Origin: Patiria pectinifera | Taxonomy: Eukaryota; Echinodermata; Asteroidea; Valvatida; Asterinidae | Direction of reading: 5' to 3' | Assembly: GCA_029964075.1 (NCBI GenBank) | Contig: CM057150.1 | Coordinates: forward strand, 3,511,717 to 3,575,716 | Length of the DNA stretch: 64,000 bases | Part shown: positions 18,401 through 62,802 of the stretch, one piece after another | Numbering within the stretch: the stretch's first letter is position 1 | Layout of the letters: each line of letters starts with the position of its first letter | Program-made: the position numbers and the translations under genes | The notes under the pieces: generated by a model | Databases searched by the model: none | Told to the model about the DNA's origin: nothing | What the model saw: only the letters and a program-made list of their open reading frames with translations

Positions 18401-21400
18401 AATTGAAACAAAGACCTCAGAGGCCTTCTTCATTAAAACTGCATCTGAAAATCAGGTTTGCTTCACTTTGGAAGACACAGATGACGACGTTTTTCTTAAG
18501 AGCAGTGATGAGAAGAAGCAAGATGCAGACAGGCAGTTGGATAAAAGTGACCAACACCAAAAGTCCAACCAGACTATTATTTCCCAAACACTGCCAAAAG
18601 CAGTTGTCGTCCTCCACGATATTTGTAAAGTGCAGAATAACAGAGTGCGCAGTATGTCTTGCAATCTGGCATTGGAGTCTTCAAATGATTTGGAGAGTTT
18701 CGCACCAAGTTCACCCAGACCTGACCAAAGCCTGTCGTTTTCCTCCACACCCAATTCAGCAAAATCGAAATCTTTGCCAAACACACCTTCCTTTGTTCGA
18801 AGTCTCTCAAAGGAGTTACCTTTCCTAACAGAAGCAAGGACCAGCGGAGGAATTGCTGAAGCAGAGTTCACCTCCAGGGATTCCAAAACAGAGGGAGATA
18901 TTGTCAATGAGGTATTGAAATCCTGCCAGGAGGAGTCTTACGAGTCATCTGATGAACTGCCTCTGACACGACTGTCTGAGAAGCTCAGTAGGAGCAAGGT
19001 GCAGGGGAGTGCAGACTTAAAGGAGGTAAAGAAGGAATGCAAAGACATCAATGAAGTTTCAGGGGACTTGATGCTGGATGAGAAAACTGGCCTTTTTGTT
19101 GTTTCCCCAGTTCTCACAAACCAAAGTCCCGGAGAGCGCAAGAAGTACCCTATGAGGTCAACCTTCTCCCGACTGACCCGCATCATTGAAAATCCAGAAG
19201 ATAAAGTCCCTCGTCGCAAGAGTAGCTCAAGCAGTTCCTCTGCATCCAAAGAGAAAGGCCATCAAGAAGATGACCAGAGTGAGACTAAACTTGATGAAAC
19301 ACCTCAGAGTCATGTAAAAAGACGTGGTCGGCCATGTAAGAGAGGTCGGCCATGTAAGAGAGGTCGGCCACGTAAGATACAGCCTCCAACTGACCAGAGT
19401 GAGCCTAAACTTGCAGAAACACCTCAGAGTCATGTGAAAAGACATGGTCAGCCTTGTAAGAGACTTGGTCTGTCACATAAGATACAGCCTCCAACTGAAC
19501 TCGATAAAGAAGACGAGAAAAATGTTGCGGTAAGCCAACCATGTGATACTCCCAGGCAGTCTGAGAGGAGGGACACGGATGCATCTCAAGAAGTTAACCA
19601 GAACAACAGCAGTCCATCACATGGGCTGACTCTAAAGAGTGTCCACAAACGACTGCAAATTTCAATGCAAAACCAGGGGTCTGATGGAAAGGATGACATT
19701 AATGATGATGATACACCTCGGTCTTTGAGGAAGAGAACTCCAGGGATCATCTACTGCGATCCTTACAGGATACGGGATGCTCCCACACAACCCCAAAAGT
19801 CCTCCAAAGAATTGGCGGAAACAGATTCAACTGAAAAAGGAGAGCAGAAAGCTGAGGAAGAACCTAAGAAAAACTCAGTAAAGCCTGTAAAGACAGAGGA
19901 GAACAAGCAAGCCGCTGAGAGTAACAAGAGTGTTGGAACTAAGACCTCATCTGAGGTTCCAAAAACTGTTGGGAAAGGAAAGGACATTGGTGTAGATACT
20001 GTTAAATCCTCTGAGGAGAGTAAGGCACCAGCTTCAGAACCCGTCAAGCTCAGCAGACGATGGCCACTCAAACGAGTCATGGGGGATTTCGTATCCAATG
20101 AGGCACTCCTCGATCTCTGGACAGGTTTGCAACCAGATTTGGGCCCCTTGAAGCAGAAACCAACAACCCCTACAGAGGTTGAAAATCCAGAAGGATCCAA
20201 CAAGAAACCAACAACTTCCACAGAGGTTGAAAATGCCAAAGTGTCCCTTGGCCAAGCTGAAAGCACCTTGCAGAAAAAGCCTCTCAGCACTGGACCAAAA
20301 GCTACAGCAAAGGTCATAATTAGCCCTAATCCAGTTTCAAAAAGTGTTCCCTCAACATCTTCTGCTGTAGTAACTACCAGTTCAGGAGTCGCCATCCCAG
20401 CAACATCTGGTCGAAAGGACTACCTAAAATGTCTCTTTAGGAGCAATGCCAGCAACCAAATGCAGAGGGTAAAGACGGCCACAAACCAGCTGAACCTTGG
20501 GTACAAGCCCGGAACTTCCGAATGTGTCATCATGAGCCGTCAGATTATCACACTGAAACCTGGTCAGGTTGTGCATATGAAGAACACAGATAAGCAACAG
20601 CGACTTGGGTCAAGGGGACGAGGCTATGGTGTGGGAAGGGGGCGTGGAAGGGGAAGACAAAGCGGAACGCAAGAGGTGCATCAAAGAGCAGATGCAACAT
20701 TCAGACAGACTACCATTCAAGATCCTCCCCGTACTAATGTGGACACAAATAACAAACTCGGAGACAAATCAGTCATTTCCATCTCAGGGCAGAGTTTCCC
20801 TCCTATCACCCAAACATCAGTTGATGCTGCAAAGAGTAACATTGCAGTTGATACTGCAGAGAAACAAGACAAACAATTTAAAAGGACAGCTACATCACTA
20901 GGTTTACATTTTGGTCAGAATTCATTGGATAAGAGTGCCAGTTTGAAGAATGAGCAAGGAAAAGCTGGCCCAACTTCTCTTACAGTGAAAAATGTGTCCA
21001 GGGACGTATCGCAAGTAACACCTCACACCTTCACCACCATCAAGACTCCAAGAGTCTCCACATCGGTAACAGCTAGAACTCTTGCCCCCCAAATGACCGT
21101 GGTCACCATGATCCCTGTCTCGGGTGCCCAGTCCTTTCCTATTTACTCATCTCTAACCCAAGTGAGTGCAACACCTACTTGGACTGTTCCCCTGCCAACA
21201 ACCTCTGGTTTCCTGCAAGCCCCTGTGTCATCCCAGCCTGATGTTACACTGGTACCCACAACTAAGATACTAGATGCCAGCAGCCAAGTTCTGTTTGCTG
21301 TACCAACGGTAAACAATGAATTAGACAGCTGTACGAGGTTGGTACAAAATCTGCCCTCTGTTCAACAGGTGGTAACGAGGCCATATCCCAAAACATATCC

Positions 21401-24400
21401 CGTTTTCTCCAGTACCAACACGTCATCTGTTCACCCAGGCTTAAATCGGAGTATAACACCGAGATTCATGAAGCCTGCATCAGCAGCCATCATACCTCCT
21501 GCATCCAGCATTGTCCACAATCCCATCCCCATGTGCAATACAATCGTGCCAAGACCCACCAGATCTCCCTTAGCCCAGGTCATGTCGACACATTCTCCTT
21601 CCCCGTTCATGTCCGAGAGGGCGCTGCTTACACCGGTGTCGACCCTTACAGGGAGTGGGATGTCATCAATTAGTCCCTTCCCAGTTCCCATCATGGCAGC
21701 CCAGCCGTCCATGTCGCTGTCATCTCCCAAGAATGCAGTGGACCAGCTCTGGTCCATCATCCAGCAGCAAGCTCAGCAGGCTCAGCGCATGGGTATCATC
21801 CCAGTCCAGCAGCCACCTGATCCAACTCTCATCCACTCTTACGCCACCACCAGTAGCCTTCCAGCAACCCCACTGGTCATCTCCAATCCACTGAAACGAT
21901 CTGCACCGGATGACACGGCCAAGAGAGTTGGGGCCAAACGGCGGAAGAACCCCCTTGAGGAGCGGATCTGGTTTGATGAGTTCGGTCAGCTGCGTGCAGA
22001 GCCCGAGTTGGTGAAAAACTCACCACCCAAACAAGCCCCAGCCAGGGAGAAGGCACCAAAACCATCTCGCTCACGACCTCGTATTAAGAATGCCTCAGGT
22101 CCAAGGATGAAGATGCCAACATTCACAGGAATCTACCAGGAGGACAAAATTGGTGAAAGAGCCCCAAACAAACCCGGTGACACCAAAACTGAATTCAGGA
22201 AGCCAACAACATCAGGTAAGAAAGTTCCCTTTTTCTTCTAAACAATTGAACAACTCTTGCTCTTTGAAAATGTATCCGTTCACAAATGATACTCGATTTT
22301 AAATTGCGATTCCTTTTTTCTTAAGACTGGTACCCTGCTAACAGGTTACTTGCCAAACTGCCGTGCAATTCTCCTTTGTAAGTGGCTCTGTGATTCTGCT
22401 CAGCACACAAATTTGTTGTTAAAGTACCTTACTTAGCCTAATAAAAAAGGTAGTTCATCCATCCAAAATTCTGGTTTTCAAACACTTTTCTCGGCAGAAG
22501 AAGGCCACGCTTCAAAGAGACCCACAAGAGTGCCAACCCGCATCCCGCCGAAAACTCCTCTCTGCAAGGAGGACCCAAAGAACCTCCGAGCATCGGTTGA
22601 GAACAAGGAGAACTTGGGTGATAGAGGGAGCCCTCCCGGTCCCGCCCAGGTACAGGCCAATGATGGTTTCAAGCTGCTGTTTGAGGTCAAGAGCGACGAC
22701 GGGTTTGAGACCAGGGCGGAGTCGATGGAAGAGGCGTGGTGCCAGGTGGTGGAGAAGGTGCAGGAACGGCGCAATGACACACGCATGAAGAGCCTGTCGT
22801 TTGCTGGTAAGGAAAGCAGTGTCTTCTATTATTTCATAAATCTGTTAGCTCATGAGCTCCGATATCGCTCCAAACAACCCTGCCTGTTACTTTCTGTACC
22901 ATGCCAAACCACCCTGCCTGTTTCTCCCTGTACCGCCCAAAACCATCCTGCCTGTTCCCTGTTACGCCCTGTACCACCCCAAACCATCCTGCCTGTTACT
23001 TCCCCAAACCACCCTGCCTGTTACTCCCTGTACCACCCCAAACCATCCTGCCTGTTACTTTCCCAAACCACCCTACCTGTTACTCCCTGTACCTCCCCAA
23101 ACCACCCTGCCTGTTACTCACTGTACCACCCCAAACTGCTCTGCCTGTTACTCCCTGTACTGCCCCAAACCACCCTGCCTGTTACTCCCTGTACCACCCC
23201 AAACCACCCTGCCTGTTACTCACTGTACCACCCCAAACCACCCTGCCTGTTACTCCCTGTACCACCCCAAACCACCCTGCCTGTTACTCCCTGTACCACC
23301 CCAAACTGCCCTGCCTGTTATTCCCTGTACCACCCCAAACCACCCTGCCTGTTACTCCCTGTACCACTCCAAACCATCCTGCCTGTTACTTTCTGTGCCA
23401 CCCAAACCGCTTTTAAGTCCCTGTACCACCGGAAATCACCACAGCACTTTGCATGTATAGATCCATCAGGGAATAAATACAATGACTTACAATGTAGTGA
23501 AGGTACTGATGGGTTAAGTCTAACAGGCTGTCCTTTTCAGGGTAAGTTTACTTTCTAGTTACTTGGCAGTATCTGTTTGCATTTGTTGGCACCTCTGCGT
23601 CAAGTTCTTTTGTATTACCCACAATGCATAGCCCATTATACAGAGCTGCAATTTGAGTGAAGTGGCCTGATAAAATTGGACCACTGAGTCTTATTGTTAT
23701 TTTGTTTTTATGTTTCTCCGAAGGTGTGGCTCCGATGAAGATTTTGGGTATCAAACATGACGCCCTGGTTTTCCTGATCGAGCAGCTCTTCGGTGCCAAG
23801 AACTGCAAGCGTTACCAATTTAAGTTCCATCAACGGCATGCAGGAGCCGCTACAGAAGAGGTTTGTAGCCGCTTCTCTGTCTGTCCAACATGCAATTTGT
23901 TTTTTTTCCCCACCTTGCGGGTTTAAAGGGATCATGCAATGTAATTTGTTTGTGCAATACTTGAAAATGAACCTTTGAGTCCCATTTGACCTTATTTTTT
24001 AGTTTCTGTGGTGCCATTTTCACGGGTATTTTAGTGCCTTTTTGGTTTTCATGCTAATGCAAATTCCCATATTCTTGACCAAAAGTTGAATGTTATTTCA
24101 GGCAGAAACCTCAATGTTACAATTTTTTCAGCACCAAGAGTTGCCAGAATTTTGGATATTTTGCTGCCATAAATGTTCTTTTCTGTGTTGATTCGTTGTT
24201 GTGTCAGTACATGGCAGTAAGCCAGTGAGCAAACTTTTCTCACAACTGCTTCCAATGAGCAAATTTAACAGGGTATTTGTTACTAGTCCTATCTTCGCTT
24301 TGAGCAAAGTTTCCGTCATTCCAAGTAATTGAAAATTATCATGCATGGCTTTAAAATAATGATGTGCATCGGGTCGGGTCGACCAGGTCAAACCGACCCG

Positions 24401-27400
24401 AAACATTATAGATATAAACCGAATCCGAACCGAAACCGATCTTAACTCCCTCAAACCGACCCGACCCGACAAAAAATAAGGTAAAACCGACCCGAACCGA
24501 AGGAAAAAAAACCCCGATTAAACCCGAATATCTGGCTAGGACAAAGTGATCACTTTTTTGTGCCTGCCCTTACACACGTGGCATGAATTCTTTTGCAAAA
24601 CCATCGTCTCTCTGTCTGTCATACTCAGTGGGTTGATCGAGAGATCACTCCGCTTTTAACAGAGGCATGGTATCATCAGGCGGTATCATGAAAACTGTTA
24701 CAAGGTATCTATTTCACTGTCAGTCCCGATCCGACTGGAGAAATTAATACCGTGGGAACTTGATAGTGCGCTCGGTGGCCACACCACACAATGGGCTGTG
24801 GTCACAGTGACTGTCAATAATATTGCATCACCTAAATTTTTTAACTGTTTCGGTTTATTTCTGTTTATTTTTTTTTTTTTTCAAAATATGGCTAAAGCGA
24901 ACCGACCGACTCTAAAACGAAAATGCAAAACCAAAACCGACTAGACCCGACTAAAAAGATGGACAAACCGACCTGACCCGACCTGAAGTCGGTTTCGGGT
25001 CGGGTTGGTTTCGGTTTCGGGTCGGGTGTGCACGTCTTTACTTTAAAACAAACGTGCATGAAATCCTTCAAAAAAGTAGAAACTGGTTTTCATTTTCCAA
25101 TGTTGTTTTCCTGCAGGAGCCCCCGCTGAACCCACACGGCTGTGCGCGGGCTGAGCCCTTCAAGACTCGTTCCCATCGCGACATATTTGACTTCCTGGCG
25201 TCCCGCCACCGCAAACGGCCGGAACTGGAGGAGGACACGCAAGAGCAGGACGTGCAGCACAAGTCCTCCAAGTAATGAGCCAATCAGAAATGAGCTATCC
25301 AAGATCACATGATACTTGTTATCCAATTAGGATATCTTTTGATACAAAAGATTTTTTTTCCCCACGAATCAGATTTCACTATGAAAGGTCACCTGGTTTC
25401 TTTTTTTTTAACCATCAGAAATGATATTCGTGGTCATGTGATCTTGATAAGCCAATTAAATTTATGCTGGCATTAAAGGCCGAGTGGAACAAGTAGTCAC
25501 AGTGTACCAAAATGGGGGAAGAATATTGCGTCCAGACGCCATTTTTTTCATCATGTGTTATCTCAATGAAGGTCAGTCATTGCAAAAATTGTTGACAGAA
25601 CATGAATCTGGGACCGAGAAACATTTCCACTTTTGTTAGAAAATTCTTAAAAAATGCACTCAACTCTCCAAAGACTTTGTACATGGCCAAAGAAGTGGCG
25701 TCTGGATACTACATCCTTTCCAAAATGGGGCCCTAAAAAATCTAAAAGATGTACATTTTGTAAGCCTGAGGCCGTGTCCGAAACGGGCTTCCACAGCTAC
25801 GGCTACGTCTATTGTCAGCGCGTCCCCGCGTATTTTCAATGGGTGCAGACCTAGACCTAGCTCTAGACAACTGATTCGGATGCAGCCTGATTTTCAGGAA
25901 ACAAATTTGGAAATCTTTGAAAAAGTTTACAAAAGAATCACATATGTAGGGACCTTTTCTGTAAAAATTTGAAAGTTTGGAGGGTGCAAAATACTTTTAG
26001 GCCGTCTACCTCATTCGAGCCATACCAAAGGTTTGTTATTCACTGAGATCAACCCTTCAAAGCAGTGTCCTCACTCGTACGCCTCAAAAAGTAGCTTTGA
26101 ATAATCTGTAAAGAGGATCTTTTACCTTCCCCCCCCCCTTCCCATCACAGACGACCCACTAGTCTTGATCTTCCCATGGCGATGAGATTCCGTCATCTTA
26201 AGGAGACGGCCAAAGAGGCAGTAGGAGTCTACAGGTCAGTACTTGCCTTCTAGAGTATGGACTCCTCGCATCAACAGTATATGGCGATTCTTAACCGCTA
26301 CAGGCGTAATTTGTGTGACATCCGTCTGTTTTCAACTTTGAAAAAGTTATGATAATGCACATGTGGCTTATTTGAAAATTTGTTTTGATTCCTGAACTAA
26401 ATATTTGATTTTCATTTACTTAATTTATTTGTTTGGTTGCAGGTCCCACATTCATGGCCGTGGTCTGTTCTGTAAGCGACCCATCGAAGCATCCGAGATG
26501 GTGATTGAGTATTCCGGTACCGTCATCCGCTCCATGCTGACAGACAAAAGAGAAAAATACTACGAGAGCAAGGTAGGGTCTGGCAGTGCTGCCGACAAAT
26601 TGGTAGATGCTCCTAAGCGTCTGAACCTTTTAGTTGTATGAATGGAAAGCTTGCAGTCTTCTTTACATCCATTTGCTGTAGCTATCCCCAGGTCTAAAAA
26701 TGGAATTATGCAAGATTTTTTTTTTATGATTTTTTTTTTACTTGTTGCCTGAGGCTTGCATTTCTTCATCCTATGATATGCTCTTCTTCTAGGGAATCAT
26801 TAATTCTTCAGAATCCTTGAATTTGGCCCATCCCTGTTATTTCTGTCCCCTTTACGTAGAGTGGCTTTCAGCCTTGTGATGGATGACTTCCACAAAACAA
26901 AAAGAAAAAGGCAGGTTCTAAAATGCCATTACATGTGTACTACATTGTATTACATTGTATTACATTGTATTTATTCACTGATGAAGCCACACGTACTATT
27001 GAGTGATCAGGTGGTTTCCGGTGCTACATTGAGAAATAGGTAGGGCAGTTTGGGGCACTATCATGAATAGTGGCTGGCTCTTGCACCCCTGAATTTTCTA
27101 AATGCTGTTAAAAACCTTGCTTACGACTTTGATTAATTGAAAGGAATATAAGAATGTTCGTCTCAACCATTACACTGTATTACATTGTATTTAGTATTTA
27201 AACAAACCTGGATCATAATGGAGCTTTTCTTTTGTTGTAGGGCATTGGTTGCTACATGTTTCGCATTGATGATTTTGACGTCGTGGATGCGACCATCCAT
27301 GGCAATGCTGCAAGGTTCATCAACCACTCTTGCGACGTGAGTATAAGAAAAACTTTGTACAGGGGAACGTTGCTATACTGAACACCGCTATACCGAACAT

Positions 27401-28364
27401 CGCCTTTGGCTCCCGATTTTTGTGTACACAACGTTCTGAACATTGTTGTTGAAAAATACAAACAGAAAGTGACAAGTGGCTATCATTTCCCCAAGGAATA
27501 GAAGGGGAAAGCCACCTATCGCCATAGGTAGTAAGCTAAAAAATTGTGTAATTACATAATTCAATAGTCGGCATGAGTTCAAAGTCGTCTTTCAGTAACT
27601 ACATGTACATGTACCATGGCATGCAGGGTGAAGTTCTGAAGGGCGCTATTTATTGAAAAGTGAGTACCGGAGCACCCCCACCTTAAAATCGCTATACCGA
27701 ACGATCGCTATTACGAACAATTTATGTGGATCCCGCGGTGTTCGTTAAAGCAACGTTCCACTGTATCTAAAAGGGGTGTGGCTGTTATCGTTTTTAAAAA
27801 AAAATGGGCACCGGGATTAGAAATGTTTGTGGTACCAAGTGCTTAACCAGGACCTTGGAATATCATTGGAAGTGAATGCCATTGGACTCACAGTCGGACT
27901 TGAGCTTGATTGAGTCAGATTTTTGGTGACTCAGACTTTGAATTTATACATTGTGCTGAAGTAAAAATTGGACTGGAACTCTTTACGTTCTCTGCACAAT
28001 ATGTGGTTTTCATTTTCAATTTTGCAAAATTTAACTCTTTGAATGCGAACTTACTGCTGTAATAAAACAGAATTAAATCAGAACCAAGCCAATCTGTCGA
28101 TTTCATTTAAATCCAATTCATTGGCTTTCCAGTTTCAAAGAGTTCAAAATTCAATTAGAAATGTCATTATTTTGTCCTTTTTCAAATCAGCCCAACTGCT
28201 TCTCGCGAGTCATCCAAGTGGACGGTAAGAAGCACATTGTCATCTTTGCCAGCCGTAAGATTCACAAAGGGGAGGAGCTGACCTACGACTACAAGTTCCC
28301 CATCGAAGACGTCAAGCTTCCCTGCAACTGTGGTGCGCCGAGGTGCCGCAAGTACCTGAACTAA
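348..28364 (+). CDS. KMT2A: KMT2A / Trithorax histone H3K4 methyltransferase, 5'-partial, 21 exons
   Basis: Exons: 348-458, 1034-1171, 1907-1999, 2380-2500, 4326-4439, 5669-5856, 6051-7550, 7995-8182, 8902-9056, 10681-10805, 11632-11739, 12890-13048, 14204-14400, 15050-22215, 22498-22806, 23724-23860, 25117-25271, 26151-26234, 26443-26572, 27241-27336, 28191-28364. They join in one frame to 3,815 residues plus TAA. The family is the catalytic subunit of a nuclear COMPASS-like complex (WDR5, RBBP5, ASH2L, DPY30) that methylates H3K4 and maintains active transcription, for example at Hox genes. Approximate residues counted from the first one here: PHD1 27-83, PHD2 76-125, PHD3 155-225, split bromodomain 225-255 plus 736-805, extended PHD4 890-1000, FYRN 1004-1085, FYRC 3510-3603, WIN about 3611-3616, SET/post-SET 3683-3815. 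PHD and SET blocks match human KMT2A closely (from memory). The part of human KMT2A from PHD1 onward is about 2,540 residues, so this one is much longer, through the bromodomain insert and the giant exon. The N-terminus is outside the window. Confidence 0.95.
459..1033 (+). other. KMT2A intron
   Basis: GTATGC donor and CCCACAG acceptor. It holds A/T-rich runs at about 630-660 and simple sequence at 715-800, where words like TTGCCTTGGTGC recur imperfectly. No gene is seen; open frames on both strands are short and lack domains. Confidence 0.7.
1034..1171 (+). CDS. KMT2A: KMT2A exon: rest of PHD1 and first ligands of PHD2
   Basis: Residues 38-83. It reads [18 protein letters not shown], then [19 protein letters not shown]. 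This supplies the Cys-x2-Cys, His-x2-Cys and Cys-x2-Cys ligands that complete PHD1, and the CHVC pair that opens PHD2. The run [15 protein letters not shown] is nearly identical to human KMT2A, which makes this the most diagnostic exon on the left side. Both junctions are phase 0 (CCCACAG acceptor, AAG before GTGAAT). Confidence 0.96.
1172..1906 (+). other. KMT2A intron containing a MITE
   Basis: GTGAAT donor and TTTGCAG acceptor. About 490 bp of it is the TTAA-flanked MITE described separately. The rest shows nothing recognisable. Confidence 0.75.
1229..1716. mobile_element. TTAA-flanked MITE, family T1
   Basis: The element lies between TTAA at 1225-1228 and TTAA at 1717-1720. Its ends are inverted repeats (AGGGAATATACATCATTTG at the left, its rough complement at the right). 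Internal landmarks include CTGGTTCCCTGACTCC and a local hairpin around CCAACGCTGATCGGCCAATC. A related copy is at 57726-58329 and partial copies are at about 5300-5558 and 46480-46740. TTAA flanks are typical of piggyBac or Kolobok families. No transposase is present. Confidence 0.75.
1907..1999 (+). CDS. KMT2A: KMT2A exon: core of PHD2
   Basis: Residues 84-114. It reads [20 protein letters not shown] followed by a basic stretch ending in TRP before the donor. Cys-x2-Cys and His-x2-Cys ligands of PHD2 are present, and the [13 protein letters not shown] motif is characteristic of KMT2A/KMT2B. In the family PHD2 binds the CDC34 and ASB2 ubiquitin machinery, as known for the human protein. Both junctions are phase 0. 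Confidence 0.96.
2000..2379 (+). other. KMT2A intron
   Basis: GTGAGA donor and TCAAAG acceptor; the acceptor lacks a strong pyrimidine run, but the frame requires it. The text around 1845-1885 before the previous exon (CGAATACGACTCAAGAAAT) recurs near 2313-2340, so the two introns share a short duplicated upstream segment. No gene is seen. Confidence 0.6.
2380..2500 (+). CDS. KMT2A: KMT2A exon: end of PHD2 and linker to PHD3
   Basis: Residues 115-154 plus the first base of 155. It starts [18 protein letters not shown], giving the last PHD2 ligand pair, and continues through [20 protein letters not shown]. The [10 protein letters not shown] block is shared with human KMT2A. It ends in phase 1 before GTAGGG and the next exon completes the glycine codon. 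Confidence 0.95.
2700..2940. repeat. Dispersed repeat with GGTCTC ends
   Basis: GGAATAGGTCTCTCT near 2698 faces its complement near 2918-2934 (AACGAGACCTATTTCC), so the segment has terminal inverted repeats. A partial inverted relative lies at about 14430-14640, sharing the stretch around GTGTTCGAAATACGACG and the ACACTGCGCAATGTG region. It is likely a non-autonomous DNA element; no target duplication was resolved. Confidence 0.5.
3245..3741. mobile_element. TTAA-flanked MITE, family T2
   Basis: It is flanked by TTAA at 3241-3244 and 3742-3745. The left end AGATATAGTCCATCATTTG matches the complement of the right end CAAATGATGGACTGTAGCT. The internal block GCATTTTGTTCGTT and the GATGAAGTTTTAG block recur at 37742-37860 and 43115-43370, so the three form one family. 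No coding capacity is seen. Confidence 0.72.
3991..4200. mobile_element. Palindromic TA-flanked MITE
   Basis: The left end GGGAGGTTTCGCAAGC is complementary to the right end GCTTGCGAAACCTCCC. Dinucleotide TA flanks both sides (3989-3990 and 4201-4202). Internal words such as AAACGGATACG recur in inverted order, so most of the element folds back on itself. A TA target suggests a Tc1/mariner-type origin. Confidence 0.72.
4326..4439 (+). CDS. KMT2A: KMT2A exon: PHD3 (H3K4me3 reader), main part
   Basis: Residues 155-192 with split codons at both ends. It reads [19 protein letters not shown], then [19 protein letters not shown]. In the human protein PHD3 binds H3K4me3 through an aromatic cage of two Tyr, a Met and a Trp. 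The equivalent Tyr (CYEDDD), Tyr (DDDY), Met (SKMM) and Trp (DRWVH) are all kept, so methyl-lysine reading is likely retained. Acceptor CCTGCAG; phase 1 exit before GTATGG. Confidence 0.96.
4440..5668 (+). other. KMT2A intron with SINE head and partial T1 element
   Basis: GTATGG donor and TTGCAG acceptor, phase 1. Besides the tRNA-like head it holds a minus-strand partial copy of the T1 MITE at about 5300-5558: its right end reads as the complement of AGGGAATATACA, and the homology continues inward. The remainder is unremarkable. Confidence 0.65.
4527..4602 (-). repeat. tRNA-like SINE head, minus strand
   Basis: Read on the minus strand it contains a perfect B-box core, GGTTCGAGTCC, preceded at tRNA-like distance by TGGTTGAGAGGTAAGATG, which resembles an A box. 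The flanks do not pair as an acceptor stem, so this is better called a tRNA-derived SINE head than a tRNA gene. Confidence 0.5.
5669..5856 (+). CDS. KMT2A: KMT2A exon: end of PHD3 and first bromodomain helix
   Basis: Residues 193-255. [18 protein letters not shown] with TKCEP supplies the last PHD3 zinc pair. The following acidic, amphipathic stretch ([20 protein letters not shown]) lines up with the first helix of the human KMT2A bromodomain, and the exon ends AEKK before GTATGT. In human KMT2A the PHD3-bromodomain pair acts as one module that also binds CYP33; the close packing is retained here. Confidence 0.93.
6051..7550 (+). CDS. KMT2A: KMT2A exon: 480-residue insertion in the bromodomain ZA loop
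   Basis: Residues 256-755, exactly 500 codons, phase 0 at both ends (TTTCAG acceptor, GTAAGT donor). About 480 residues are low-complexity, rich in Ser, Glu, Thr, Pro and Val and strongly acidic, with no domain I recognise. Only the last 20 or so ([20 protein letters not shown]) belong to the bromodomain, matching the human segment that precedes the second helix. Human KMT2A has a ZA-loop extension of only roughly 50-60 residues here. Adjoining exons fit in frame and no stop interrupts 1.5 kb, so this is coding rather than a retained intron. Confidence 0.9.
7551..7994 (+). other. KMT2A intron almost filled by a SINE
   Basis: GTAAGT donor and CTGCCTAG acceptor, phase 0. The SINE at 7598-7960 makes up most of it, leaving only about 30-50 bp of unique sequence on each side. 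Confidence 0.8.
7598..7960 (+). mobile_element. tRNA-derived SINE, copy 1
   Basis: A tRNA-like head at 7598-7670 contains a perfect B box, GGTTCGAATCC at 7652-7662. A conserved body follows (CTCTCCTGTGCCACGAGGG and TAAGGATGATTAG) and the element ends in an A/T-rich simple tail. A second copy is at 13324-13625 with the same body but a decayed B box. The open frames that cross it on both strands are chance. Confidence 0.8.
7995..8182 (+). CDS. KMT2A: KMT2A exon: C-terminal half of the bromodomain
   Basis: Residues 756-817 plus two bases. [15 protein letters not shown] continues helix two, and [15 protein letters not shown] with SRSWEQN closes the domain; human KMT2A has FPWFSV and SRFWEPN at the same place. 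The acetyl-lysine pocket of human KMT2A is atypical, so acetyl binding should not be assumed. It exits in phase 2 (CCT GA before GTGAGT). Confidence 0.94.
8183..8901 (+). other. KMT2A intron
   Basis: GTGAGT donor, ATCCAG acceptor, phase 2. A/T-rich with poly-T runs near 8410-8430. No repeat family or exon is recognised. Confidence 0.65.
8902..9056 (+). CDS. KMT2A: KMT2A exon: HCF-binding motif linker
   Basis: Residues 818-869. It begins [19 protein letters not shown] and continues into a basic proline-rich linker ending PARIIG. Human KMT2A has a closely similar LPP-DHNYAQW stretch. It connects the bromodomain to the extended PHD4. Acceptor ATCCAG with a phase 2 entry (codon GA-T) and a phase 1 exit before GTAAGG. 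Confidence 0.93.
8939..8950 (+). other. HCF-1 binding motif (DHMY)
   Basis: The four residues Asp-His-Met-Tyr fit the (D/E)-H-x-Y motif used by human KMT2A (DHNY) to dock host cell factor HCF-1. The neighbouring AQW is also conserved, so the site is probably functional. Confidence 0.75.
9733..10190. mobile_element. MITE family M1, interrupted by a second MITE
   Basis: The left end (AATGTAGCGTCCGGACACCACTT) matches the complement of the right end around 10158-10190 (AAAAGTGGCGTCAGGTTGCAACATT). Uninterrupted relatives lie at 25514-25722 (inverted) and about 53860-54017; they share GAAATGTTTCTCAGTC and GCAATGACTGACCTTTATTGA. In this copy the sequence is broken at 9898-10145 by another element, so it is older than that insertion. 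Confidence 0.7.
9898..10145. mobile_element. MITE family M2 nested inside M1
   Basis: Terminal inverted repeats of about 30 bp: GCGATCAAGCTAAATGAGTC near 9901 and GACTCATTTAGCTTGATC near 10119. A possible 6-bp flanking duplication ATATGT is present on both sides. A second copy is at about 56580-56835 with the same inner text (TGGTATCAGCATG, CACAGCAGTAATGCTGAGAT). No coding capacity. Confidence 0.75.
10681..10805 (+). CDS. KMT2A: KMT2A exon: start of extended PHD4
   Basis: Residues 870-911. After a linker it reads [20 protein letters not shown] and then LYCGQ. The CxLC pair and the acidic run ending NDGGRLLY match the pre-PHD zinc knuckle of the extended PHD finger in human KMT2A (RQCALC, ANDAGRLLY). 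Phase 1 entry, phase 0 exit before GTATGC. Confidence 0.95.
10806..11631 (+). other. KMT2A intron with MITE
   Basis: GTATGC donor, CCCTCAG acceptor, phase 0. About half is the TA-flanked MITE; the remainder is A/T-rich with no recognised content. Confidence 0.75.
10890..11297 (+). mobile_element. TA-flanked Tc1/mariner-type MITE, copy 1
   Basis: It starts CAGTGGAACGCCGCTATAAC and ends with GCCACTG; TA flanks both ends (10888-10889, 11298-11299). The right half repeats TTCGGTATA words. Other copies are at 27360-27763 (opposite orientation) and 62316-62802. The ends resemble pogo/Tc1-type termini common in invertebrates. No transposase frame. Confidence 0.8.
11632..11739 (+). CDS. KMT2A: KMT2A exon: middle of extended PHD4
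   Basis: Residues 912-947, phase 0 at both ends. It reads [20 protein letters not shown] and ends RGRQL. The W-x-H-x2-C and LWSAEVFE block is the hallmark of the extended PHD finger; human has [18 protein letters not shown]. The human C at the next position is replaced by Gly, which is not a zinc ligand. Confidence 0.96.
11740..12889 (+). other. KMT2A intron with simple repeats
   Basis: GTGAGT donor, CCACAG acceptor, phase 0. A short tandem of the word AGTCCATCACA lies near 12090-12120. Recurrent CCTCCAAAATC words between 12300 and 12600 face AGGATTGAGGAGG near 12670, suggesting a decayed inverted repeat. No exon is seen. Confidence 0.6.
12890..13048 (+). CDS. KMT2A: KMT2A exon: end of extended PHD4
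   Basis: Residues 948-1000, phase 0 at both ends. It reads [20 protein letters not shown], then [20 protein letters not shown] and FCDTHRD. All zinc ligands of the PHD part are present (C-x2-C, GCC, H-x2-C, FCDTH). The family's extended PHD4 mediates protein contacts and, with FYRN, lies upstream of the Taspase-cleaved region in vertebrates. Confidence 0.96.
13049..14203 (+). other. KMT2A intron with SINE
   Basis: GTAAGT donor, GTCCAG acceptor, phase 0. The SINE fills 13324-13625. Nothing else is recognised. Confidence 0.75.
13324..13625 (+). mobile_element. tRNA-derived SINE, copy 2
   Basis: It shares GGTGGCATGGGTGGCT, AAAGCGCTCGCCTCT, CTCTCCTGTGCCACGAGGG and TAAGGATGATTAG with the SINE at 7598-7960. 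Its B box is degraded (GGTTCATTCCC), so this is an older copy. Confidence 0.78.
14204..14400 (+). CDS. KMT2A: KMT2A exon: FYRN domain
   Basis: Residues 1001-1065 plus two bases. [20 protein letters not shown], then [10 protein letters not shown] and LYPLEFR. Human KMT2A has FEVFRRVFVDFEG, IGSMTIDCLG and LFPIGYQ in the same order. FYRN pairs with FYRC near the C-terminus to hold the two parts of the protein together. Acceptor GTCCAG, phase 2 exit before GTAAGG. Confidence 0.95.
14401..15049 (+). other. KMT2A intron with partial dispersed repeat
   Basis: GTAAGG donor, AAACAG acceptor, phase 2. Positions about 14430-14640 are an inverted relative of the repeat at 2700-2940. No other content is recognised. 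Confidence 0.65.
15050..22215 (+). CDS. KMT2A: KMT2A giant exon: FYRN end and 2,350-residue disordered region
   Basis: Residues 1066-3454; 7,166 bp with one open frame. The first 28 or so residues ([20 protein letters not shown]) finish FYRN and are nearly identical to human. The rest is Ser/Glu/Asp/Thr-rich and likely disordered. Notable patches: an AT-hook cluster (19317-19380), a YP-x-RS-like basic block near 19144-19180, an RG-rich patch (20613-20657), VQQPPDPTL at 21804-21830 and basic clusters ([19 protein letters not shown]). Human KMT2A also encodes this span in one large exon of about 4.2 kb, so the layout is ancestral while the length is expanded. Exits in phase 1 before GTAAGA. The listed start GTG at 15096 is internal, not an initiator. 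Confidence 0.95.
19272..19496 (+). repeat. In-frame tandem duplication carrying AT hooks
   Basis: Two adjacent units (19272-19391 and 19392-19496) encode [14 protein letters not shown] followed by a basic block and IQPPT. The first unit carries three GRP cores in a row (RRGRPCK, KRGRPCK, KRGRPRK); the GGTCGGCCA-based repeat is 18 bp. In the second unit the hooks have decayed to HGQPCK and LGLSHK, and one 15-bp step is missing. AT hooks bind the minor groove of A/T-rich DNA. Confidence 0.85.
20613..20657 (+). other. RG-rich patch
   Basis: The frame reads [15 protein letters not shown]. Such patches bind nucleic acid and are arginine-methylation targets in other proteins. I recall no equivalent in human KMT2A. 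Confidence 0.6.
22216..22497 (+). other. Short KMT2A intron
   Basis: 282 bp, GTAAGA donor and TCGGCAG acceptor, phase 1. No repeat seen. Confidence 0.8.
22498..22806 (+). CDS. KMT2A: KMT2A exon: start of FYRC
   Basis: Residues 3455-3557 (split codons at both ends). After a basic proline-rich linker comes [20 protein letters not shown], then [20 protein letters not shown]. Human has FEISSDDGFQICAESIEDAW and KVQEARSNARLKQLSFAG. FYRC packs against FYRN. The frame stays open into the intron by chance because of the minisatellite. Confidence 0.95.
22807..23723 (+). other. KMT2A intron carrying the minisatellite
   Basis: GTAAGG donor and CCGAAG acceptor, phase 1. The acceptor follows a T-rich run and is fixed by the reading frame of the next exon. 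The minisatellite occupies 22870-23425. Confidence 0.85.
22870..23425 (+). repeat. Intronic minisatellite, unit about 34 bp, 16 copies
   Basis: The unit is built around CCTGCCTGTTACTCCCTGT followed by ACCACCCCAAACCA. I count 16 occurrences of the CTGCCTGTT core, including one CTACCTGTT variant. Some units are shortened to about 23 bp, and substitutions such as TCACTG for TCCCTG mark subfamilies. The unit is not a multiple of three and contains no stop in any forward frame, so all three forward frames stay open across it and read as Pro/Thr/Leu/Cys repeats. Confidence 0.92.
23724..23860 (+). CDS. KMT2A: KMT2A exon: core of FYRC
   Basis: Residues 3558-3603. [20 protein letters not shown], then [15 protein letters not shown]. 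Human has MLGILHDAVVFLIEQL and SGAKHCRNYKFRFH. Phase 1 entry, phase 0 exit at GAG before GTTTGT, a less common but acceptable donor. Confidence 0.95.
23935..24300. repeat. Dispersed repeat shared with 47540-47800
   Basis: The text around TGCTAATGCAAATTCCCATAT and GATTCGTTGTTGTGTCAGTA appears in inverted orientation at 47540-47800 (CACAACAACGAATC, ACTTGCATTAGCAT). The element's ends and class are not resolved. Confidence 0.5.
24357..25040. mobile_element. hAT-like non-autonomous element with 8-bp target duplication
   Basis: CTTTAAAA at 24349-24356 is repeated at 25041-25048, an 8-bp duplication. The inner ends TAATGATGTGCA and TGCACGTCTTTA are imperfect inverted repeats. Both ends carry runs of the word CCGACCCG (or its complement CGGGTCGG). 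Eight-bp duplications are diagnostic of hAT-type insertion. No transposase frame remains in the 684 bp. Confidence 0.8.
25117..25271 (+). CDS. KMT2A: KMT2A exon: WIN motif linker
   Basis: Residues 3604-3654 plus two bases. [18 protein letters not shown], then [15 protein letters not shown] and an acidic tail. Human has [18 protein letters not shown] and MFNFLASKHRQPPE. It holds the WDR5-binding WIN motif just upstream of SET. A stop would follow if the exon were read through; the donor AA before GTAATG keeps the frame with the next exon (AA-A CGA). Confidence 0.95.
25138..25155 (+). other. WIN motif (GCARAE)
   Basis: Gly-Cys-Ala-Arg-Ala-Glu. The central arginine inserts into WDR5 in the human complex. 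Human KMT2A has Ser where Cys stands here; Cys at this place is known in KMT2C/D, so binding is expected to hold. Confidence 0.85.
25272..26150 (+). other. KMT2A intron with M1 element
   Basis: GTAATG donor, CATCACAG acceptor after a C-rich tract, phase 2. Outside the M1 copy nothing is recognised. Confidence 0.75.
25514..25722. mobile_element. MITE family M1, uninterrupted copy
   Basis: GAATATTGCGTCCAGACGCCA at the left faces AAGTGGCGTCTGGATACTACATCC at the right as an imperfect inverted repeat. Inner text CAATGAAGGTCAGTCATTGC is the complement of that in the 9733-10190 copy, and there is no M2 insertion here. Confidence 0.68.
26151..26234 (+). CDS. KMT2A: KMT2A exon: pre-SET (n-SET) segment
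   Basis: Residues 3655-3682 with split ends. It reads [20 protein letters not shown] and KEAVGVYR. Human has ATSMDLPMPMRFRHLKKTS and KEAVGVYR. Entry is phase 2, exit phase 2 (TAC AG before GTCAGT). Confidence 0.95.
26443..26572 (+). CDS. KMT2A: KMT2A exon: SET domain, first part
   Basis: Residues 3683-3726. [20 protein letters not shown], then [20 protein letters not shown]. The HGRGLF loop binds S-adenosylmethionine. Human has RSPIHGRG, so Pro is replaced by His just before the loop. The EYxGxVIR and DKREKYY blocks are intact. Ends in AAG before GTAGGG, phase 0. Confidence 0.96.
26573..27240 (+). other. KMT2A intron
   Basis: GTAGGG donor, TTGTAG acceptor, phase 0. A short tandem of TACATTGTAT lies at 26942-26970 and recurs at 27176-27190. 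No exon or transposon is recognised. Confidence 0.7.
27241..27336 (+). CDS. KMT2A: KMT2A exon: SET domain, middle
   Basis: Residues 3727-3758, phase 0 at both ends. [20 protein letters not shown], then [12 protein letters not shown]. The NHSC motif supplies active-site residues and the Cys that joins the post-SET zinc site. Nearly identical to human ([21 protein letters not shown]). Confidence 0.97.
27337..28190 (+). other. Last KMT2A intron, with MITE
   Basis: GTGAGT donor, AAATCAG acceptor, phase 0. Contains the MITE at 27360-27763, only 23 bp downstream of the donor. Confidence 0.8.
27360..27763 (-). mobile_element. TA-flanked Tc1/mariner-type MITE, copy 2
   Basis: Opposite orientation to copy 1. 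Left end CAGGGGAACGTTGC, right end GCAACGTTCCACTG, with TA at 27358-27359 and 27764-27765. Internal text is the complement of copy 1 (for example CCAAGGAATAGAAGGGGAAAG and the TTCGGTATA words). Confidence 0.8.
28191..28364 (+). CDS. KMT2A: KMT2A last coding exon: SET end and post-SET
   Basis: Residues 3759-3815 and [23 protein letters not shown], then [11 protein letters not shown], then [15 protein letters not shown]. The catalytic TYDY and the post-SET C-x-C-x4-C zinc ligands are complete. The SET to post-SET linker (EDVKLPC) is two residues shorter than human (EDASNKLPC). Human N3861 and Q3867, which shape KMT2A's low intrinsic activity, are Gln and Lys here by my alignment. Confidence 0.97.
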   Translation, partial: PNCFSRVIQVDGKKHIVIFASRKIHKGEELTYDYKFPIEDVKLPCNCGAPRCRKYLN

Positions 28365-29990
28365 GAGAGGTGTTCATCCTGCAACTGTGGCACCTTTAAG
28401 GAACTGTGAGAACCGGAACTGAAGAGAAGTACAAATCCGATGAGTCAAGAACATCCCCTTCAACTGCGGCGTGCTGCCGTGAGGCACGTACATGAACTAG
28501 GAGAGGTATCATTTTACCAGTCAAGCATTTAAGATCTGCAACTGTCGCTCAATATCCCCATCGAAGACGTCAAGCTTCCCTGCAACTGTGGCGCACTGCA
28601 GTGCCGCAAGGACCTAAACTAAGAGAGGTGTTCATCCTGCAACTGTGGCACCTTTAAGGAACTGTGAGAACCAGACTTGAAGAGAAAGTACGAATCCGAT
28701 GAGTCGAAAACATCCCCTTCAACTGCAATGTGCTGCCGTGAGGCACATAGAGGTATCATTCTAATAGTCAAGCATTTAAGATCCACAACAGTGGCATCTT
28801 CAGGAACTGCGAGTACCTGAACTGAAGAGAAAGTACCAAATCTGATGATTCAAGAACATCGCCTTCAACGGCTGCGTGCTGCCGTGAGGCAAGTACCTGA
28901 ACTAAGGGAGGTGTACATTTATCTGTTGCGTACAGTGATGCTGCAAGTAAAAGAGAATTATATATTAAGGAGTCAAGAACATCTGCTGCACCTGTGGCAT
29001 TTTGCAGTGCCACAAGTACCCAAACTAAGAGACGTCCAAGTTATGTTCATTCGCAAATTCAAGATGATTCCAAGCTAACACGGTAGTGCAAAGTGTTTCT
29101 GCAAGAACCCTTGTGTAGAGAAACGTGTATTTGAGAAGTTGAGAACATCAAGTGCAACTGCGGCACAACGTTATGCCCCGGGTACCTGAACGAAGAGATG
29201 TACCTTAATGACGACAGATATGCATTCAAGAAGTTGCAAACCTCCCAAGGAATTGTGGCACCCAGCGGTGCAACAAGTACCTGAACTATGAGATGCATAT
29301 TCAAGGAGTGAAAAACATTCTGTTCACCTGTGCTGCACAGTACAGTAGTGCCACAAATGCCCGAGTGCCAAGAGATATACATTCAAGAAGTTGAGAACGT
29401 CCAGTAAAATTGTGGCACACTGCCAGGCATGCAACTTTTCCTCGGATTAGCTGATTTCCTCTTCTGTTAATACCATGTGTACCATTCAAAACAGAAAAAC
29501 ACTGTACAAAGTCTTGGAAAGATTTGAAATCCCTTTTTTTTTTGTGACTTCCCAGTTGCATGCCTGACTGCTGTGCCACAAGTAAAGACTACTGTACCGT
29601 CAAGGAGTTCTCAAGAACATTCCCTTCAACTGTGGAGTACTGGGGCGTCACAAGTCCCCGGGCTAAGAGAAATTGGACTTTGAAAAATCAGGTCGCTGCA
29701 AGTACCAGAACTCCACGTTATTATCACAAACTTCGAGATCATCTGCAACTTTGACGCACTGCGGTGTCGCAAGCACCTCAACTGAGAAAGCCATGCAGTA
29801 TGGGATAATGCAACAGTGAAAAGTCTTAGTTTTTTTGTCCATGGGCACAAGGTATTTCACAGTGTTACTTAGAGTCTTCTAAAGTAGTATCAGGGTCCTG
29901 GAAAAAAGTCCCGGACATGAGTATCGCTTTCAACTGCAATTCCCTGAGATGCAACAAAGTACATGTAATACCTCTGAACTGAGACTGTGC
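28365..29990 (+). repeat. Decayed tandem array derived from the KMT2A post-SET tail
   Basis: Segment 28298-28547, which begins inside the last exon, is repeated almost exactly at 28555-28790: offset 258 bp at the start and 247 bp at the end. In the copy, 28562-28622 still reads [20 protein letters not shown] and TAA. Degenerate units built on the words ATC, TGCAACTGTGGC, TGCCGCAAGTACCTGAACTAAGAGAG continue at about 28371-28430, 28447-28510, 28629-28687, 28706-28757, 28775-28832, 28851-28913, 28971-29034, 29139-29200, 29231-29296, 29304-29376, 29386-29425, 29609-29672, 29731-29790 and 29919-29986. Most have stops or lost cysteines. The stretch probably lies in the 3' untranslated region. Confidence 0.82.
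28555..28622 (+). pseudogene. Duplicate of the post-SET coding tail with an intact frame
   Basis: This copy of the last coding segment keeps the three post-SET cysteines and the stop, but changes APR to ALQ and the Tyr near the end to Asp. No SET domain sequence precedes it and no good splice acceptor is seen, so it is most likely untranslated. Confidence 0.7.
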
Positions 29991-32900
29991 AGCGATAGAG
30001 AATAGGAATGTTAAAAGTAAATGCTGTTTTGTTGTGAATTCACATTTTCCCGGTGGTTTTGCTGAATATGGTTTTCGGTCAGTAAATAGGTAATGCGTAG
30101 CACTCGGAACATGAGGATTCCTTGCAAATGTACTTATCCTTCAATACCACACGTACCTTAACCAAGATTGATATATTCAGATGTCGTTTTGTTGCAAACT
30201 TGCAACGTTCTTTTCTGTTTTTATGGAAACGTGCAGAAAATTGGTTGGGGTGTCCACTTTTCCTGCTAGCTGCCATGTGCCGCGATGCCTGAATTTAATT
30301 TGGAAGTGAATTACTTTACTTCACCCTGCAATAACACTAGTGCCAATAGAAGCAGCTGGAGCCAATTCACATAGACATCTTTGTTGTATTGCCATCTGTC
30401 GCCAATTAATTAAGACGTATGGCCGTACTAAGACCAAGGTTTGCATGACGGAAAGTTAGGATGTTCTTTTATTGTGTTTTTTTTTTAAAAGTTGCATCAG
30501 GTTTTTTCTGCTTTGCTTGAGATTGTTTAATTGGCGTCCTGGAACATGTCGAGAAAATGATTTGTCCAAAGATTGCTGCCATTGAAAAACATAAAGAGTG
30601 GACGATAATTTGTAGTTCAAAGACGCTCGTGAAATTCGCACAAAAGGCAAACGGCTGTGATTAAGTCTTGATTTAAATGCAAGCTTATTAGCTATACCGG
30701 GTTTAACAATTTGTCCCCCCAAAATATTAAAAGTTTTGCAAAATTGTACATATTTTATAAACAGTTTTTAACATTACTATGCATATCCTTCGATATACTT
30801 TGGCGATGGGAATCAGTTTTGAACCATGTGTTGTTATCAATGGACAATGATACACCTTTTTCTAAGAGATTTCAATTGAATGCATTGAATGCAATTTTGG
30901 TAATTGTACAGAATTTGGAGGTCACGTTTCTATTACCCGAGTGCCCCTGATATGTATTCTGTCTCGGAAATAAGTAAAGGAAAATCACAGAATTTTCAAG
31001 CTTGCCCAGTAAATTGGAAACATGGCAAGTAGGGAAGTTACAGTTTGAATTTGAGAGATATCCGGCTGGGGGAAAAAAAGGTAGTGAGTTCACTGGTTTG
31101 TCAATAGCGTTGTGTTGCATTGCCAAATTGTTTGGGGGAAAGTATTGGATTTCAGAACGGAAAGTAGGAAAATGTGAAGGAGAGTTAAAGGAAACTGCCA
31201 AGGAGAACCTCAGGACACGGAACTTGGTTAAAAAAAAAACTGGGAAATCCGGTTTGTAGAATGTGGAAATTTCAAGAAGGAATTGGGATTCAAGGAGATG
31301 TTTAATTCGGAAAACATGGAAAGAGACGGAAATGTTGGCAAACAACGGAACTGAAATGTCAAAAAAAGATCTCTTTTTACATTATGGGTAACAAATTGGG
31401 AAATCACTAGATGTAAATTGTCATCCATATATGGACAATATTATGTTTTTCAATTTTTGGATCTTCCATGTAAGTTTTGCGTTCTGCTCTGTTGATTTTA
31501 TATTTTACAATTTCTAAGTAAATTTTCACTGTGTTATATTTCTGATATTTTGTTTTTCAGCGTTCAGTGTATAAGTGTAAACTTGAAGATTGGTATTATT
31601 ACTATTAAAATAGTTGTATTTATTGTCTCCATTATTTCTAGTACTTTGTTAAAATGATTTAAGAGATATTAAAATGAGAGATGTTGCTTTTTTATATAAA
31701 AAAAACTTGGCTGCATTGTGTTTTGTTTTCATTATGATTCCTGATGCTATAACTTGTTTATTGATCTGGTACACGGTACCCTGTGGAGACATGGGTATAA
31801 TACGGAACAAAAAATTGTATACATGTGTGCGTCTCCACAAAACAATTCGTATAGGTGAGTAACCTTGTCTCCACAAGGTTATCACGAAATAGATGTATGG
31901 ATTTTACTCAAAAAGTAGGAATGTCCAAGGCGTGTTGATCCGTCGCAAATTGAAGTACTTGTACATTGTATGTTATGTAAGGCATATCGAGTCCGAATTC
32001 AGAACAGGAAATTAATCCTGGTTAAAATAAGAGCATTTTCAATTTTTTTTAAAAAATTTTCAGTACAAAACAAAGAAATGGCTTCACAAGGGTACAAATT
32101 CCAGTACGGGTGCTCTCCAGACGTTCAGCTTTATAATGAAGATAGTAAGCATCATACCGCTAAGCCCTTTTAGGCTTTTCAGGCCAAATGCTATTCTTGG
32201 CAGGAATTGGCCCAGTGCAGACATTTTCCTTAATATCAGAAGCAGGTTTATTACCAAGCCGAAATGTCTTGCAGTGTTTGTCATGACCGATTGGCCTACT
32301 CGCCTTCTCTGCACCACCTCATAAATACAAATATAAATTTGCTGAACAGGTTTTCCGTCGAGCATTTCCCCAAAAGTGGCATGCAAAAAAAAGTAGCCTA
32401 TATTTGCACAATGCGAAATTCGATTGAAATTTGAGAAAGTGTCGACCTCGTCCCAACCTCATCCCCACGGCCTACTTTAGTTTCAATCTGTAGAAGCAGA
32501 TAGCGGGAGCGTTCTGCTCGACACCATGGAAACAAGGTTGGATTTAGTGTGCCCCTGAAACGGTTTGCGAAATCTCGGCTTCGTCTTTGTATCGACTCCC
32601 GGCCCCAGATTCATGATTTTCGTCCCTGACCTGACAGACTCCAGTACAATATTGATCCATTTGCTGTATCAGAGACGCCCTGCAAATACACAAGGCTAAT
32701 GGTTAATGTTGAAAGTCGCGTCGTTTTCATTAATCTTGGAATGGAGACGAAGTTGGAGACGAAGACGGGATTTCGTACACCCTTACAAAGTTTCAATTTA
32801 TCCACCTCATCTGTTTAGCATATATCAACGCCCGTCGCGACCTGTGGGATCTCTGCTTTTGGGGGCACCGCGCGCGGTCGTCAAGGATCTATGCAAATGA

Positions 32901-62315: not shown

Positions 62316-62802
62316 CAGTGGAACGTCGCTATAATGAACATCGTTGGATCCACAGAAAGTGTTCGTAATAACAATCGTTCGGTACAGCGATTTTGAACCG
62401 CCGGTACCCTCTTTTGACCAATAGTGAAGTCACTGAACTGGCACTTCTCACATCCCGCCGCCGCATGAGGAGTCGTCACAAAACTTTAGCAACCGGTGGT
62501 TTTCCCTTTTATTCCTTGGGGAAATAATAGCCATCTAGATCGCTCTTCAGCATTCAAACATGATGTACATGTAACCATGGGTGGTTTGATGTTCGGGAAT
62601 TAAAAGTGGCCCAAACAGTGTTTAATACATGTACAACCGATAGGTTTTTTTTGTTAATCTGTTGATTTTTTTCAACAACGATGTTCGGTAGGTTTTATAC
62701 ATTGAAACCGGGAGCCAAGGATGATGTTCGGTATAGCCGAATGTTCGGTATAACGGTGTTCAGTATAGCGGTGTTCGGTATAGCCGAAGCGGCGTTCCAC
62801 TG
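62316..62802 (+). mobile_element. TA-flanked Tc1/mariner-type MITE, copy 3
   Basis: CAGTGGAACGTCGCTATAATG at the left and GGCGTTCCACTG at the right, TA on both sides (62314-62315, 62803-62804). The right end carries several TTCGGTATA words, more than in copies 1 and 2. Confidence 0.8.

Follow-up and report, generated by a model that had tools for sequence, protein, structure and literature searches.

A tandem array built from the end of a KMT2A/B gene lies directly in that gene's 3′ flank, and is very probably an old minisatellite from the gene's own end that is decaying neutrally. The array was confirmed in the 64,000-nucleotide stretch of Patiria pectinifera DNA analysed here (the window), and is larger than an earlier note on this DNA had described (Table 1).

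Table 1. Features of the gene end and its repeat array (positions within the window)
Feature	Position	Strand	Evidence
Last coding exon of KMT2A/B (Trithorax-type) gene, as assigned by homology	28191..28364	+	acceptor, Pfam SET, PDB matches
Unbroken head-to-tail run of 21 units as parsed, with a 75-nt consensus period (29463-29532 unconfirmed)	28305..29787	+	wrap-around alignment, leave-one-out
Unit 1, the gene's own functional end (19 codons, stop, 7 nt)	28305..28371	+	wrap-around parse
Probable later block duplication, first copy (units 28305, 28372, 28438, part of 28514)	28297..28548	+	self-BLAST
Probable later block duplication, second copy (units 28563, 28630, 28697, start of 28769)	28555..28795	+	self-BLAST, global alignment
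Best extra copy, reading CNCGALQCRKDLN-stop	28563..28629	+	wrap-around parse, codon comparison
Unit pair 28769, 28843	28769..28915	+	identities, tree, direct repeats
Outlying decayed unit	29915..29984	+	profile match
Outlying decayed unit, far end of array	30110..30186	+	score vs null windows

Host gene and repeat units

The last coding exon follows an acceptor at 28191 (...tttcaaatcag, then CCCAAC) and contains the end of the SET domain (Pfam SET, E 2.7e-10), the post-SET CxCx4C motif and a TAA stop at 28362-28364. Judged from these matches, the host gene is a Trithorax/KMT2A-B orthologue with its SET end intact. The earlier note's choice of KMT2A was too narrow, as the joined SET domain matched KMT2B (PDB 7bre, E 6.3e-90) and KMT2A (PDB 6pwv, E 8.9e-90) indistinguishably; Trithorax-type KMT2A/B is the safer name. 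Nine exon stretches, placed approximately, were searched against the window, and the last alone had a match outside itself.

A wrap-around profile, whose EM starting consensus was composed by eye after the whole region had been read, parsed 28305 to 29787 into 21 head-to-tail units (score 793.7; 1426 bases aligned in the best segment, 28288-29787). The basic unit is about 75 nt and not the roughly 250 bp proposed before, and the "at least a dozen" weaker units become 20 besides the exon's own. Translated in one frame, the consensus reads QEVKNIPCNCGALRCRKYLN-stop, which is the post-SET tail. The proposed origin in the last exon and the repeated tandem duplication are both supported.

The dot-plot check, run as self-BLAST of 28298-30200, gave 20 off-diagonal matches (best 291 bits); 1 of 100 dinucleotide-preserving shuffles had any such match (a single one, 34.6 bits). 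Leave-one-out scoring, with unit boundaries taken from the parse of all units and a profile omitting the scored unit and its named siblings, placed 20 of 21 units (the exon's unit and 19 of the 20 extra units) above every one of 139 to 149 null windows per unit. The exon's unit scored 66.8 against a null maximum of 17.9, units 28514, 29052 and 29533 passed narrowly, and unit 29463-29532 did not exceed all null windows. Further out, 29915-29984 was found at E 0.0078 by a nine-unit seed that excluded it, and at E 2.3e-5 in round 3, when it was itself in the profile. The piece at 30110-30186, outside the training segment of the wrap-around profile, scored 33.3 against a maximum of 21.4 among 110 null windows. 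The array therefore extends to about 30186, beyond the end first placed near 29990.

Fate of the copies behind the stop

Copy 2 still reads CxCx4C and then a stop, as had been noted; all three Cys codons and the in-place stop are retained in two of the 20 extra units (28563, 28966). Over the 13 codons from the first Cys, the exon's unit differs from the consensus by 3 synonymous and 1 replacement changes, and the extra units by 14 synonymous and 125 replacement codons (Fisher p 0.005, with four changes only on the exon side), counts in which units are non-independent, multiple-hit codons bias toward replacement, and the consensus takes in the exon's unit and its sister. In the copies, conservation was 255/376, 269/381 and 282/378 at the first, second and third codon positions, with no difference among them (chi-square p 0.12), and the value beyond the stop, 159/224, did not differ either (Fisher p 1.0). 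Free of coding constraint, the extra copies are drifting like ordinary non-coding DNA.

An effect of the array on mRNA structure, also suggested earlier, found no support: the fold of 28365-29360 had z -0.25, with 7 of 20 shuffles folding equally well, and no consensus base pairs emerged when 16 of the 21 units were aligned. The array is a curious fossil minisatellite, and our sequence analyses indicate no function for it.

Duplication history

The repeated segment from the last exon exists but is not almost exact: the pair has 85.4% identity with gaps (E 4.7e-82), 26 mismatches in 246 ungapped columns, identical runs of 56 and 37 nt, and a 12-nt gap inside unit 28697 of the second copy. The pair is a probable later block duplication spanning three to four units, the exon's end included. 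An assembly artefact as source of the pair was rejected because the copies, only ~85% identical, are too diverged. Mismatch is 12% in 28292-28364, 5% in 28365-28428 and 14% in 28429-28549; its clustering (permutation P 0.0016 to 0.022) hints at possible gene conversion between the exon and the nearest copy, and lends the earlier idea of a conversion template for the real tail a hint and nothing firmer.

Units 28769 and 28843 are nearest to 28372/28630 and 28438/28697, respectively (pairwise identities 0.81/0.78 and 0.85/0.69). With tree support of 98/98 for 28372+28630+28769, and direct-repeat families D2 and D6 in line, this pair points to a probable earlier duplication in which two units (~146 bp) were copied together. 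The block pair is 5-14% mismatched, while eight selected older units lie at a mean JC distance of 0.57 from one another, and therefore at least two episodes are indicated.

A simple model with old units far from the gene and new ones near it predicts that decay increases with distance. However, identity to the exon showed no gradient over the 20 units (Spearman rho -0.25, p 0.28) or the 13 beyond the block pair (rho -0.12, p 0.70). Decay of old units and a later duplication, both proposed earlier, are supported; an age gradient away from the gene is not.

The founder unit of the minisatellite is the gene's own end: some 20 codons that encode the post-SET zinc-binding tail, followed by the stop codon and roughly a dozen further bases. 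For the duplications we infer the following mechanism and order. The first tandem duplication would have had one breakpoint inside the last exon and the other shortly after the stop; a CATC common to exon (28301) and flank (28375) may mark the site. Unequal exchange or slippage may then have raised the copy number to about 20, and near the gene a two-unit block, then one of three to four units including the exon's end, would have been duplicated. Since the first copy's stop codon ends translation, such duplications do not alter the protein and are tolerated; the extra copies, probably located in the 3′ UTR, are shielded behind the stop and would evolve neutrally.

Units and extent of the array

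Self-comparison of the segment from 28298 to 30200 gave 20 off-diagonal matches, the best of 291 bits, and a match (single, 34.6 bits) appeared in one of 100 dinucleotide shuffles of that segment. These matches bear out the proposal of the earlier note that a tandem array continues beyond a 258-bp pair. Among 1.9-kb stretches sampled along the window, 25 of 31 had no such self-match, and the only two with more than two were the array (20) and a 34-bp repeat (8). A profile search seeded with nine matches and run for three iterations found 20 array matches on a single strand, 18 of them with E ≤2.3e-4. A dispersed-repeat origin was checked for within the window: the best match outside the array had E 0.065 in round 2 (5342-5367), and the three outside matches of round 3 had E 0.28 or more.

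Wrap-around alignment, in which the profile repeats endlessly, aligned 1426 bases in 28288-29787 to a 75-nt consensus and parsed 21 units, named here by their start coordinates. The first row of the parse, 17 nt at 28288-28304, lies in the exon; it is an artefact of the wrap-around and is not counted as a unit. The total score of the array was 794, and the EM null was unclean: the same start reached 640 on the null window with the 34-bp tandem repeat, and on the other windows of the set of 22 it reached as much as 300. Therefore, we relied on leave-one-out scoring, in which each unit is scored by a profile built without the unit itself and its named siblings. By this measure, 20 of the 21 units scored above all null windows (139 to 149 per unit). 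Units 28514, 29052 and 29533 passed narrowly, and 28514 was scored with 28769 kept in the profile, although 28769 partly shares its block copy. The unit at 29463-29532 failed and may be an insertion. Moreover, 30110-30186, which lies outside the training segment, scored 33.3, whereas the highest of 110 null windows scored 21.4. With the default score, Tandem Repeats Finder does not list the array because the units are too diverged. The 21 units stand head to tail, and their consensus length falls in the range of roughly 10 to 100 bp that characterizes minisatellites. In the one assembly analysed, the array thus comprises about 1.9 kb of 75-nt units.

A pair of about 250 bp had been described earlier as an almost exact repeat and as the repeating segment itself. 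The pair is real, and at 85.4% identity (27 or 26 mismatches by two aligners) it is not near-exact; it is a block of several 75-nt units. A basic unit of 250 bp was rejected, since self-BLAST, the profile search and the wrap-around parse all place a 75-nt period inside it. Identities of corresponding units are 90% for 28305/28563, 95% for 28372/28630 and 76% as parsed for 28438/28697, where a 12-nt gap disturbs the figure. These three pairs apparently record a block duplication. In addition, 28769 and 28843 are closest in pairwise identity to 28372/28630 and 28438/28697, respectively, suggesting an earlier two-unit duplication step, and we infer the duplication steps of the array from such likenesses. 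In a tree of the 21 units, 2 of 18 inner branches are well supported, four units are long-branched and the bootstrap is unsettled; one trio of units, in line with the two-unit step, has support of 98/98. Eight selected older units (each 60 nt or longer, located past 28840, with 29052, 29463 and 29533 left out) have a mean JC distance of 0.57 among themselves, whereas parts of the block pair lie 0.05 to 0.15 apart. Identity to the exon was also tested for an age gradient, and it shows no fall with distance along the array.

The gene end and the proposed founding duplication

The gene in front of the array carries an extended PHD match (zf-HC5HC2H, 35.1 bits, cut-off 29.1) and an FYRC match (25.6 bits, cut-off 21). 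A long open stretch of 2398 aa starts with a match to the end of FYRN, which covers part of the domain only and scores 19.2 bits (cut-off 24). The joined SET and post-SET sequence (158 aa) matches KMT2B (PDB 7bre, E 6.3e-90) and KMT2A (6pwv, E 8.9e-90), two chains that we take to be human, and aligns to them up to its last residue. A SET domain with NHSC and a post-SET CxCx4C at the extreme C-terminus are present, and the gene end is intact. The gene is a histone H3K4 methyltransferase gene of the Trithorax type KMT2A/B, with KMT2A and KMT2B not separable.

Coordinates of gene, array and other repeat features in the window
Feature	Position	Remark
Extended PHD match	12740-13054	
Open stretch	15045-22238	
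FYRC match	22437-22820	
SET exon	26158-26238	approximate
SET exon	26447-26572	approximate
SET exon	27241-27336	approximate
SET exon, last	28191-28364	approximate
Stop codon TAA	28362-28364	
Array, profile matches	28307-30176	+ strand, all 20
Block pair	28297-28548 / 28555-28795	
Inverted pair	29488-29509 / 30200-30221	
34-bp minisatellite	22870-23408	
Interspersed repeat	27406-27766	
Interspersed repeat	10887-11234	minus strand
Interspersed repeat	62311-62718	minus strand, three pieces
Cluster of short tandem units	38504-38726	

Read in one frame, the array consensus is QEVKNIPCNCGALRCRKYLN-stop-EMYI, which is the post-SET tail by comparison with the end of PDB KMT2A. Hence, the founder would have begun about seven codons upstream of the first Cys and included the stop codon and about a dozen bases beyond it. 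The opposite direction, from array to exon, is excluded because the exon is homologous to KMT2A/B. The word CATC is common to the exon (28301) and the flank (28375), 74 nt apart, and is a plausible breakpoint of the first duplication. Such a tandem duplication across the stop codon would not alter the protein, as translation terminates in unit 1, the functional gene end. Minisatellites expand through unequal exchange or slippage and then decay. Units past the stop, being shielded, would multiply and decay in the same manner.

Constraint, decay and competing explanations

Within the 13-codon stretch that opens with the first Cys and closes with the last Asn, unit 1 departs from the consensus at three synonymous codons and one replacement codon. 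The 20 extra units carry 14 synonymous and 125 replacement changes over the same codons, a count that excludes the 17-nt row (Fisher p 0.005 against unit 1). Conservation in the copies is 255/376, 269/381 and 282/378 at codon positions 1, 2 and 3, and 159/224 behind the stop, with the 17-nt row inside the last count and a few of the codon-position counts. No difference was found in the copies between codon positions (p 0.12) or past the stop (p 1.0). All three Cys codons and the stop are in place in two extra units of 20 (28563 and 28966), at least one Cys codon is lost or absent in 17, and several units contain in-frame stops. A coding minisatellite is translated in one frame under coding constraint; here the stop lies in unit 1, Cys codons are lost and the units are not spaced by a constant multiple of three. 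These patterns fit purifying selection on unit 1 and decay of the others as non-coding DNA, with few changes on the exon side.

It is conceivable, and in our judgement unlikely, that the exon end and its nearest copy swap short tracts, so that the evolution of the enzyme tail is partly concerted with that of the array. Across the 246 aligned columns of the block pair, the 26 mismatches are clustered, leaving identical runs of 56, 37 and 31, and permutation gave P values of 0.022 for the longest run, 0.006 for the two longest and 0.0016 for the three longest. The 56-nt run spans the stop codon. However, clustering also arises from selection acting on the exon and from uneven mutation, and the data come from one genome. 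At the seven central coding mismatches, it is the exon that departs from the consensus in four cases and the copy in three; thus, no recent conversion has reset this stretch. The gene tail at 28332-28343 reads GGT GCG CCG AGG (within GAPRC), and the consensus reads GGC GCA CTG CGG (within GALRC), so an earlier version of the enzyme tail may survive in the array. A wider proposal, to which we give similarly little credence, is that the unit-1 stop acts as a shield, that the tail reseeds the array by block duplication and trades short tracts with it, and that the C-terminus would thereby evolve with a reservoir of untranslated copies keeping fossil tail states such as GALRC.

That the units are 3′-UTR regulatory elements, kept as RNA-binding or small-RNA sites, appears quite improbable. 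AATAAA and ATTAAA are absent from the stop to 30726, and therefore the array may lie in the 3′ UTR and be transcribed; however, both hexamers are also absent in 12.6% of 500 shuffles. The earlier note had suggested an effect on mRNA structure, which the folding results do not favour: the fold of 28365-29360 has a z of -0.25 against 20 shuffles, an alignment of 16 of the 21 units has 0 consensus pairs, and Rfam gives no match at the gathering threshold. No stable or covarying fold common to the units was found in these comparisons. Moreover, the equal conservation of coding-derived and flank-derived parts is what decay gives.

The use of copies for other C-termini, through alternative terminal exons or readthrough, is highly improbable. 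The CxCx4C tail and stop are still readable in 28563 and 28966, and the earlier note was right to say so of the best copy (28563), but the spacing irregular modulo three, the missing Cys codons, the in-frame stops and the predominance of replacement changes in the extra units all stand against it. An assembly artefact is scarcely credible, since copies that differ from unit 1 by 10 to 50% and by many indels are not a mis-assembly of one locus.

Related systems, meaning and neighbouring repeats

The array, most probably an old, decaying minisatellite seeded across the stop codon, is closest in kind to 3′-UTR minisatellites and to the coding minisatellite of Prdm9. SLC6A3 (DAT1) has a 40-bp VNTR in its 3′ UTR, behind the stop codon, with a unit that is not known to be of coding origin. 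As there, tandem units of tens of bases lie past the stop of a protein gene; unlike there, the first unit here is a conserved coding end with its stop, and the array is strongly decayed. PRDM9 is a histone methyltransferase. Prdm9 has an array in its last exon whose tandem unit is a zinc-binding motif; three stop-codon repeats end the array, and the units are translated fingers of 28 codons in which the DNA-contact codons show replacement variation (PMC3890296). The two arrays share a zinc-binding motif as tandem unit, whereas here the stop stands in unit 1 and units 2 onward are untranslated, irregularly spaced and unconstrained. The partial tandem duplication known as KMT2A-PTD is somatic and repeats N-terminal exons. 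It occurs in AML and myelodysplastic syndromes, according to one report (PMC13066730). Both cases are tandem duplications in a KMT2A-type gene, whereas the array here is diverged, at the 3′ end and presumably germ-line. Coarse word searches of open-access titles and abstract openings found no description of an array of this kind behind a KMT2 gene, which is weak evidence of absence.

The array leaves knowledge of KMT2 enzymes unchanged. It clearly illustrates how a conserved gene end can seed tandem repeats harmlessly, all later copies being shielded by the stop codon. The decayed copies also provide a built-in neutral yardstick: most of the few changes in the functional copy are synonymous, unlike those in the other copies. 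The consensus of the copies points to an earlier form of the enzyme tail. If relatives share the array, the duplications could be dated and conversion into the gene tested.

Several other repeats were observed. An inverted pair of 22 nt, 77% complementary, spans the far part of the array and is perhaps due to chance. The interspersed repeat of about 360 bp has three sites, one in the intron directly before the last KMT2 exon; this copy is 82% identical to the one at 10887-11234, and at each of the three sites one edge carries short tandemly repeated GTTCGGTATAGCG-like words. The 34-bp minisatellite has 16 copies with several open frames in the intron that follows the first FYRC exon, starting about 60 bp past that exon, which has no matches outside itself. 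Finally, the cluster of short tandem units further downstream contains palindromic AACATTTTAAATGTT-like words.
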